From assembly GCA_002746255.1 (NCBI GenBank), contig NVWO01000003.1, forward strand, positions 80,570 through 120,933: 40,364 nucleotides of DNA. Direction: 5' to 3'. Both the position numbers and the translations under genes were made by a program. This document shows positions 3,448 through 5,730 of this stretch, in pieces. The notes below the pieces were generated by a model. The model saw nothing but the letters and a program-made list of their open reading frames with translations, ran no database searches and was not told the DNA's origin. Origin of the DNA: Rhodospirillaceae bacterium. Its GTDB lineage: Bacteria > Pseudomonadota > Alphaproteobacteria > GCA-2746255. Numbering within the stretch: position 1 is the first letter of the stretch; the number at the start of each line of letters is the position of its first letter.

Positions 3448-4479
3448 TTAGGCTGTCTTGCGAACGCTTTCGACAAGCTCGGCGACATGTTCCGGCGGCG
3501 TCTTTAAATCAACCCCGTGGCCAAGATTAAAGATAAAAGGCCCGCCGCCCAGGCTTTCCAGTATCGATGCCGTTGCCACCGCCATCGTCTGGCCCCCTTC
3601 AATCAGAGCTTGGGGGCTTAAATTTCCCTGCACACAAACCTTCGGCTGAAGTTTTTCTGCCGCCCATTTCGGCAAAACATCTGTATCGATGCTGACCCCG
3701 TCCAGACCGCTTTTTTCGGCATAAATTTCATAGCGCGTCTTAACGCCACGGGGAAAACCAATAAGCGGTACCTCTGGAAAGGCTTTCCGTAATTTGCCGA
3801 CAATGGCTTGAGTTGGCGCAAGGCACCAGCGTTCAAATTGCGCTGGGGAAAGAAGGCCCGCCCAGCTATCGAAAATCTGGACCGCATCAGCGCCGGCTTC
3901 GATTTGGCGAATAAGGTGATGAGAAACGCTTTCAACCAGAATGTTGATTAGCTCGGAAAAGGAATCCGGGGCTTCATCGGCCCAGCGTTTTGCCTTTTTA
4001 AAACCCTGGCCACCGCGCCCTTCGATCATATAAGCGGCAAGAGTCCATGGTGCGCCCGCAAAACCAATTAACGCTGTTTTATCTGAAAGCTCGCTTCGCG
4101 TTTTTTTAATCGCCTCATAAACCGGAGCAAGCTTTTCTTCCTGCCAGACAAGGTTTTTTAGATCCGCGTCGCTTTTCAGTTCTTCCAGAACCGGGCCTTC
4201 ACCCTCTCGAAAGGCGACCCACTGACCAAGGGCATCTGGAACAACCAGAATATCTGAAAAAATAATTGCCGCATCAAAAGAAAAACGCCGGATTGGCTGC
4301 AACGTTACCTCAACCGCCAATTCTGGCGTATAGCAAAGTTCCAGAAAATTCCCGATCTTTTTTCTTACCTCCCGATATTCCGGAAGATACCGGCCTGCCT
4401 GACGCATGAGCCAGATCGGCGGCGGCGAAAGACATTCCCCACGCAAAGCCTGCAAAAACGGTTTTTTAGCATCAGACAT
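3448..4479 (-). CDS. hemE: Uroporphyrinogen decarboxylase
   Basis: HemE removes four carboxyl groups from uroporphyrinogen III to give coproporphyrinogen III in the cytoplasm. The 343 residues match the family length. The two signatures are present: PIWLMRQAGRYLPEYR near residue 22, with the substrate-binding arginines, and GFAGAPWTLAAYMIEGRG near 140. The catalytic aspartate is in IIFSDILVVPDALG. It heads the minus-strand heme set and reads away from the putative origin. Its 5' half is visibly richer in A/T than later genes in the window. No strong Shine-Dalgarno is seen before the ATG. Confidence 0.98.
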   Translation of the reverse strand: MSDAKKPFLQALRGECLSPPPIWLMRQAGRYLPEYREVRKKIGNFLELCYTPELAVEVTLQPIRRFSFDAAIIFSDILVVPDALGQWVAFREGEGPVLEELKSDADLKNLVWQEEKLAPVYEAIKKTRSELSDKTALIGFAGAPWTLAAYMIEGRGGQGFKKAKRWADEAPDSFSELINILVESVSHHLIRQIEAGADAVQIFDSWAGLLSPAQFERWCLAPTQAIVGKLRKAFPEVPLIGFPRGVKTRYEIYAEKSGLDGVSIDTDVLPKWAAEKLQPKVCVQGNLSPQALIEGGQTMAVATASILESLGGGPFIFNLGHGVDLKTPPEHVAELVESVRKTA

Positions 4480-4518
4480 TTTTGAAAGATCGTTTCACTT
4501 CGATGAAGACCACTTACC

Positions 4519-4549
4519 TTATCTATATAAGAATATTAAATAATAAATA
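4519..4549. other. AT-rich putative DNA unwinding element
   Basis: Of these 31 bases only two (4523 and 4531) are G or C, in a genome of about 60% GC. Such a tract beside DnaA boxes is the usual unwinding element of an origin. It could also hold the hemE promoter, but no well spaced -35/-10 pair stood out on the minus strand. Confidence 0.6.
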
Positions 4550-4667
4550 GTGGCTGTAGTAGGGCCTGTGAAAAGGAAGGATGCTTTCTTCATTCAGGAC
4601 TTTTCACCAATCGGCCAAAAACGCACCACGCCAAGCAGCCAGCCTGTGGAAATCCAATTGAAAACGA

Positions 4668-4676
4668 TGTGGATGA
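4668..4676 (-). promoter_or_regulatory. DnaA box, 8 of 9 to consensus
   Basis: TGTGGATGA reads TCATCCACA on the minus strand, one base away from the strong DnaA box TTATCCACA. Related TGTGGA copies at 4645 and 4681 flank it in the same orientation, about 23 and 13 bp away. Confidence 0.6.
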
Positions 4677-4711
4677 GCTATGTGGACCCTCGTGTTTTTA
4701 AAGAAAATTTC

Positions 4712-4732
4712 TTTTCCACAGGCTGTGAGAGA
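4712..4732. promoter_or_regulatory. DnaA box in an inverted pair
   Basis: TTTTCCACA (4712-4720) fits the degenerate DnaA consensus TTWTNCACA at every position. After three bases comes TGTGAGAGA (4724-4732), which fits the opposite orientation at seven of nine, so the two make an inverted pair around CACAGGCTGTG. Confidence 0.6.
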
Positions 4733-4902
4733 AAACCGGAATCTGGGGCGGTTTCGCCGCTTTTTGCTGGTGTTTTAAACCGGCGGGGATAACGTTGTTC
4801 CAGTACCAAAAAGACGAAGAAGAACCGGTGGGGGAAAGAGAGCTCTTTTTCCCCCTCGAAGAAAATAGACGACATACACACATCTTTGAAGAAAGTGTCC
4901 AC

Positions 4903-5730
4903 ATGTCTCCGGTGAAAAATTTTCATCTACATCTTGTTTCAGATGCGACGGGTGAGACAATCGGCAACGTTGTTCGCGCCTGCCTTGTTCAATTTGAAAA
5001 CGTTACAACGCAAGAACACAACTGGTTTCTCATTCGCTCAGAGGCACAGATCGGGCGCGTTTTGGAAGCGGCGGCGGCGACGCGCGGCGTTGTGCTTTTC
5101 ACCCTGGTTAATTCCAGGCTCCGTAAGGCGCTGGAGAACGGCTGCCGGAAATTAAAGCTGCCTTGTATCCCGGTTCTGGATCCGGTCATGGGCGCGCTTC
5201 GTGGCCATTTGGGAATCGAAAGCCAGGACCAGCCCGGTCGCCAGCACGCGCTGGATGAAAAATACTACCACCGGCTCGACGCCATGAGCTTTGCCCTTTT
5301 AAACGACGATGGGCAGCATGCGGAAAATTTGAACGATGCCGATGTCGTGCTTGTCGGAGCTTCGCGGACGACGAAAACACCAACCTGCATCTATCTTGCG
5401 AACCGGGGCCTTCGTGCCGCGAATGTCCCCATCGTACCGGGCGCGCCGCTTCTTGATGCCGTAGGGAAGGCGGTTCGCCCGCTTGTTGTCGGGCTGACGA
5501 TGGAGCCCTCTCGCCTTGCCGAGGCACGCCAGTCGCGCCTGCCGGAAAGCGGTGGTGCAACGGGCTACACGGATTTTGAAAGCGTTCGGGAGGAAGTTCT
5601 GCGTGCGCGACGGATCTTCAGCGAACATGGCTGGCCGGTGATTGATGTGACGCGGCGCGCCATCGAAGAAACGGCTTCGGCTATCCTGCAGCTTTACACC
5701 GAACGGCGAAGTGTGGCGGCCCATGAATAA
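4903..5730 (+). CDS. ppsR: Pyruvate phosphate dikinase / PEP synthase regulatory protein
   Basis: This DUF299-family protein is a bifunctional serine/threonine kinase and phosphorylase that switches pyruvate phosphate dikinase or PEP synthase off and on, using ADP and phosphate. From the ATG at 4903 it has 275 residues, the family length, and begins with the typical KNFHLHLVSDATGET. An earlier ATG at 4795 would add 36 low-complexity residues and run through the origin region, so I reject it. The P-loop-like motif GASRTTKTPTCIYLANRG is near residue 150. Its homologues (RP001, CC_0001) flank the origin in Rickettsia and Caulobacter. It overlaps maf by 8 bp. Confidence 0.93.
   Translation: MSPVKNFHLHLVSDATGETIGNVVRACLVQFENVTTQEHNWFLIRSEAQIGRVLEAAAATRGVVLFTLVNSRLRKALENGCRKLKLPCIPVLDPVMGALRGHLGIESQDQPGRQHALDEKYYHRLDAMSFALLNDDGQHAENLNDADVVLVGASRTTKTPTCIYLANRGLRAANVPIVPGAPLLDAVGKAVRPLVVGLTMEPSRLAEARQSRLPESGGATGYTDFESVREEVLRARRIFSEHGWPVIDVTRRAIEETASAILQLYTERRSVAAHE

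Follow-up and report, generated by a model that had tools for sequence, protein, structure and literature searches.

A very probable chromosomal replication origin in the hemE–ppsR gap of an alphaproteobacterium, with a putative DnaA-trio array beside its AT-rich element

The 423-bp gap between the divergent genes hemE (minus strand) and a ppsR-type gene (plus strand) of a Rhodospirillaceae bacterium is almost certainly the chromosomal oriC of this alphaproteobacterium. Its opening is likely, at roughly 75–80%, to follow a trio-based mechanism like that of the basal unwinding system (BUS) described in Bacillus subtilis, a reading that draws on analogy with that system. The gap occupies positions 4480–4902 of the window, i.e., the whole stretch of 40,364 nucleotides that was analysed, which corresponds to positions 80570–120933 of contig C3 (161,518 bp). 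The source genome comprises 2.10 Mb in 33 contigs and is 99.8% complete, and the genome-wide scans for skew, boxes and arrays covered 2.02 of the 2.10 Mb (96%). The features of the gap are collected in Table 1.

Table 1. Features of the hemE–ppsR gap and its flanks, in window coordinates
Feature	Position	Strand	Remarks
hemE (uroporphyrinogen decarboxylase)	3448–4479	−	left flank; Pfam PF01208, E 5e-115
oriC interval (assignment almost certain)	4480–4902		contig's cumulative GC-skew minimum at 4644
AT-rich DNA unwinding element (predicted)	4519–4549		29/31 A/T; ATCTATATAAGAAT identical in two congeners
Putative DnaA-trio array TAG TGG CTG TAG TAG	4548–4562	+	T1+G3 score 9/10; in all four genus members
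GC spacer GGCC, trios to box	4563–4566	+	4 bp, the average spacer of published BUS
Trio-proximal DnaA box CTTTTCACA	4567–4575	−	degenerate, 8/9
Conserved GGAT downstream of trio-proximal box	4579–4582	+	CTGTGGATAACGGGGA in other orders
DnaA box ATTTCCACA	4645–4653	−	8/9; segment absent from G002, G003
DnaA box TCATCCACA	4668–4676	−	8/9; segment absent from G002, G003
Weak DnaA box GGGTCCACA	4681–4689	−	from sequence; segment absent from G002, G003
DnaA box TTTTCCACA	4712–4720	+	sole full TTWTNCACA match; CCACAG invariant in four genus members
Weak inverted partner box TCTCTCACA	4724–4732	−	from box scan
Conserved GGGGATAAC block (TTATCCCCG, 7/9)	4784–4792	−	congener G002 has a full TGTGGATAAC box here
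Weak DnaA box GTGTCCACA	4895–4903	+	overlaps ppsR start; CCACATG also in G002
ppsR-type Kinase/pyrophosphorylase (Kinase-PPPase; COG1806/DUF299 family)	4903–5730, ATG at 4903	+	right flank; Pfam PF03618, E 3e-85

Position of the gap on the chromosome

The cumulative GC-skew minimum of C3 falls at 85213, i.e., at window position 4644 within the gap, and in 5-kb bins the skew is negative in every bin to the left of the gap and positive in every bin to the right, which places the replichore switch of a bacterial oriC at this very interval. A comparable switch from negative to positive was absent from all other contigs of the 2.02 of 2.10 Mb scanned. The remaining contigs carry a single sign of skew, with four exceptions: C1 dips briefly, C2 contains a stretch of low GC, C4 has a flip, and C18 is mixed. 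The flip in C4, at about 122 kb, runs from positive to negative and is a candidate for the replication terminus, and the stretch in C2 (70–105 kb, GC about 0.49–0.57) is skew-neutral within an otherwise positive contig and is perhaps a mobile island. Contig C18 also carries a paralogue resembling domain IV of DnaA (G000:C18:29882–30160, part of a 306-aa frame; identity 53% across 91 aa). The dnaA gene itself lies on a contig other than C3, and in two congeners it is found ~97 kb from ppsR. A perfect parS occurs as a single copy in the scanned genome; it lies at C3:72573, at a distance of 12.5 kb.

An oriC at this place is what synteny leads one to expect. The divergent placement of hemE and ppsR that characterises the alphaproteobacterial hemE–COG1806 origin was identified by Pfam, the gene order continues leftward with rho, UPF0093/hemJ and hemH and rightward with maf, aroE, coaE, dnaQ and secB, and hemE and ppsR are arranged alike in relatives; hemE–ppsR synteny was seen at this locus and at 60 of 64 further alphaproteobacterial loci. 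At the alphaproteobacterial loci L033, L038, L039, L053 and L035, hemE was not found beside ppsR, and the neighbour was rho, secB or hemH, or none was found, so that at these loci one of the two genes may have carried the origin along with it. The preliminary description had proposed that 4480–4902 is oriC and had suggested GC skew as a check. This check, when run, put the minimum inside the gap and not elsewhere, and the proposal is supported by that minimum together with synteny, parS and the conserved core of unwinding element, trios and box described below.

Divergent genes need promoters, and the gap could be an ordinary hemE/ppsR promoter region, AT-rich as promoters can be and with DnaA boxes that arose by chance, while the origin lies elsewhere; the TTWTNCACA counts of the gap are equalled at other places in the genome. 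Such a reading has to contend with the skew minimum in the gap, the parS 12.5 kb away, a genus-wide core and a class-wide array, and no sigma-70-like promoter was detected in 4400–5000 (by a scan that is weak for alphaproteobacteria). It is already largely refuted, and we give it hardly any credence.

The AT-rich element, the boxes and the conserved core

The AT-rich element, which had been described as a 31-mer with two G/C bases, exceeds every other 31-mer of the window in A/T content, and its share of 29/31 is reached at only nine places genome-wide; when 50-bp segments were scored for duplex instability, the best one in the gap was equalled or exceeded by 0.03% of those in the genome. Beside the 29/31 A/T stretch lies a cluster of four boxes within 155 bp, each with at most one mismatch, the pairing that is looked for in an origin. 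By the count of TTWTNCACA with at most one mismatch, this cluster only ties for third in the genome, and box counts by themselves thus fail to set the locus apart. A search for a stronger DnaA-box cluster, also suggested earlier, gave none that was clearly stronger in 96% of the genome. With five copies in 300 bp, TCCACA/TGTGGA reaches a unique genome maximum in the gap (the next elsewhere being 3), for a motif that was picked after seeing the site. Copies of TGTGGA start at 4645, 4668 and 4681, 23 and then 13 bp apart, with the inverted pair CCACAGGCTGTG after them at 4716–4727; this layout, and the one full TTWTNCACA match, are as they had been described.

The three TGTGGA copies stressed in the preliminary description lie in a segment that is missing from two of three congeners (G002 and G003), and the conserved core was overlooked there. 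The four genus members have in common this core at 4519–4590, CCACAG at 4715–4720 and a GGATAAC-type block at 4786–4792. The core consists, in order, of the AT-rich element, TAG TGG CTG TAG TAG, GGCC, TGTGAAAAG and GGAT, and each of the four members has a degenerate box next to the trios. In congener G002, where hemE–ppsR is likewise present, the trios read TAG TAG TGG TGG TTG. When the 14-mer ATCTATATAAGAAT was searched in 59 genomes with one mismatch allowed, exact copies occurred within the genus only, and matches outside it were no commoner than in the control. The conserved GGGGATAAC block, noted at 4784–4792 and at locus L013, lies in the right-hand portion of the gap.

By analogy with the BUS, we infer that a DnaA oligomer would form here and capture a strand. 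DnaA probably binds the boxes at 4567–4575, 4645–4689 and 4712–4720, and an oligomer starting at the box beside the trios would grow to the left along the plus-strand trios at 4548–4562. By stretching the trio strand, it would then open the AT-rich element at 4519–4549 for helicase loading.

Trio arrays and DnaA residues across Alphaproteobacteria

The array was followed into other hemE–ppsR gaps with a score over five successive triplets that counts a T in first and a G in third place and ignores the middle base; the threshold was a score of at least 9/10, and the expectation was taken from dinucleotide shuffles of the same gaps. T-N-G arrays were found in 15 of 42 gaps of a first set, against 0.61 expected, and in 17 of the 64 gaps of a hold-out set, many of them from families not sampled earlier, against 0.67 expected. 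Pooled, this amounts to 32 of 106 alphaproteobacterial gaps versus about 1.3 expected, with 29 distinct arrays among the 32; as the loci are related and the counts not independent, the figures overstate the significance somewhat. On the opposite strand of the 64 hold-out gaps no array was found (0.17 expected). The stretch that precedes the arrays has a mean A/T content of 73% in the hold-out set, and in the scanned part of the source genome, which holds 160 arrays with a score of at least 9, only the one at window position 4548 follows at least 24/30 A/T. About two thirds of the gaps stay below the threshold. The Rhizobiales-like gaps L048, L050, L052, L055, L057 and L058 seem to have no T-N-G array and may be opened at a different element.

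The bare pattern TDGx4-N(0,14)-TGTGG was not enriched above a reversed control in 385 whole genomes and is therefore unspecific without position and AT context. De novo motif discovery in distant alphaproteobacterial gaps gave CTGTGGATAACGGGGA. A gapless EM motif from 38 distant gaps misses the site studied here, which has a spacer shorter by 1 bp and a degenerate box, and for this reason conservation was tested via trio phase and alignment.

That motif CTGTGGATAACGGGGA resembles the E. coli R1 box with its flank and thereby lends some weight to an opening in the manner of E. coli, in which DnaA sitting on its boxes in the duplex would recruit a T-rich single strand and the T-N-G repeat would merely reflect a G-rich, C-poor strand. 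The trio centres, which are not adenine-specific, and the presence of Lys at 202 and of Val or Ile at 190 in E. coli DnaA as well point the same way. The T-rich strand of E. coli oriC, however, reads TGTGGATAA at R1, whereas the equivalent strand of this gap is A-rich in the AT-rich element, and the phased array, which stands between AT-rich element and box on one strand only and far above shuffles, also speaks against this reading; we consider E. coli-style opening unlikely. A G-quadruplex or R-loop might instead form on the G-rich strand of the repeat and aid opening, with DnaA not reading trios at all, as the TGGTGGTGGTGG arrays at L027, L302 and L333 could suggest. The array of this gap (TAGTGGCTGTAGTAG) and other TTG/TAG-rich arrays are devoid of the necessary G-tracts and yet keep the phase of T and G, which makes this a very improbable account. 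An Rfam search gave no match.

In the trio-based reading, the middle base deserves attention, and its composition is informative because it was left out of the scoring. Across the 160 trios of the 32 arrays it is A in 60, G in 50 and T in 50; C makes up 24% of the gap DNA, yet is never a trio centre. Three A-centred trios in a row occur in 4 of the 32 arrays. At position 187 of DnaA, 47 alphaproteobacterial proteins have Tyr (42), Phe (3), Gln (1) or Asn (1), the figures being made up of 29 tabulated proteins (Tyr 28, Phe 1) and 18 read by eye (Tyr 14, Phe 2, Gln 1, Asn 1), and Lys at position 202 and Glu at position 228 were found in 29 of 29 tabulated DnaAs. The numbering follows a sequence that we take to be that of B. 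subtilis DnaA; it agrees with the numbers in print at the key residues, and the alignment to PDB 8btg is consistent with it. Asn and Gln align at position 187 in the solved DnaAs of Thermotoga and Aquifex, and the corresponding residue in E. coli is Gln208.

In B. subtilis, the middle adenine of the trio is contacted by Asn187 (and Glu183) of DnaA and the guanine by Arg202 and Glu228, and at the centre C can replace A while G and T work poorly (PMC10721633). The authors of the BUS work observed that the trio-capturing residues of DnaA are not universally conserved. Of the capture residues Asn187, Arg202 and Glu228, the alphaproteobacterial proteins keep the Glu, with Lys in place of Arg202 and mostly Tyr in place of Asn187. 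A centre that is A, G or T and never C, in combination with Tyr at 187, makes a relaxed trio code plausible: the alphaproteobacterial opening code would be T-D-G (D = A, G or T), co-evolved with the change from Asn187 to Tyr in DnaA and with the guanine contacts largely kept, a proposal that we put forward tentatively and at less than even odds. That alphaproteobacterial DnaA might tolerate A, G or T at the centre on account of its Tyr is speculative, a tie suggested by the sequences of arrays and proteins.

Comparison with known origins

The hemE/COG1806 interval was experimentally identified as the origin in Caulobacter and assigned as such in Rickettsia, and Cori of Caulobacter crescentus and the Rickettsia prowazekii ori resemble the present gap in their flanks, their length of ~400 bp, their AT-rich element and their several DnaA boxes (PMC1914354). 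The IHF pattern WATCA-N4-TTR, at up to one mismatch, had no match in the gap; the consensus in PMC1914354 is spaced differently (WATCA-N5-WTR). The box layout is unlike that of the Caulobacter and Rickettsia origins, a departure from the Caulobacter plan that had been pointed out in the preliminary description along with the lack of a visible CtrA pair. TTAA-N7-TTAA, the CtrA pair of the Cori plan, was indeed not found in the gap with 0–1 mismatch, and it appears at two mismatches only, in AT-rich DNA. As this is so despite a ctrA gene on contig C11, a Caulobacter-type CtrA control is not supported.

E. coli oriC, with its DUE–R1 arrangement, is similar in that a box with similar flanks, CTGTGGATAACGGGGA, is found in other alphaproteobacterial gaps. 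It differs in that it is not known to have a hemE–ppsR neighbourhood, and the strand polarity of its AT-rich element is opposite to that of the gap.

The gap also resembles the BUS, for which PMC8287927 gives the order box, spacer of ~4 bp and 3'-GAT-5' trios running into the opening site. In B. subtilis and other bacteria, according to the same paper, an AT-rich stretch, trios, a short GC spacer and a box follow one another in the order and on the single strand seen here, and TAG is among the commonest trios, as it is in the present array. Trios lie between the box and the AT-rich DNA within the BUS spacer limit of at most 16 bp, at 4548–4562 with GGCC leading to 4567–4575. The published search rule asks for at least three consecutive A-centred trios; in the proximal array the centre is A in three of five trios, not three of them consecutive, and the in-register run AAT AAT AAA TAG stops at a distance of 16 bp from the box, just at the limit that the rule sets. 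The tree of the 2021 BUS survey (PMC8287927) includes the five proteobacterial classes, so BUS in Alphaproteobacteria were probably predicted there by the A-centred rule. In the literature searched, no title or abstract on Caulobacter or Sinorhizobium described trios in an alphaproteobacterial origin, and the one paper that joins Alphaproteobacteria, DnaA-trio and oriC concerns, by title and abstract, Epsilonproteobacteria.

The published BUS search required adenine at every trio centre, a contact shown for B. subtilis DnaA only, and those who solved the BUS structure did not settle what other homologs of DnaA bind. From the known BUS, the gap differs by a trio centre of A, G or T in place of A, a box that is degenerate in its own genus, and a DnaA in which Tyr replaces Asn187. 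If alphaproteobacterial T-D-G trios are read by a Tyr-bearing DnaA, trio specificity would evolve with one DnaA residue.
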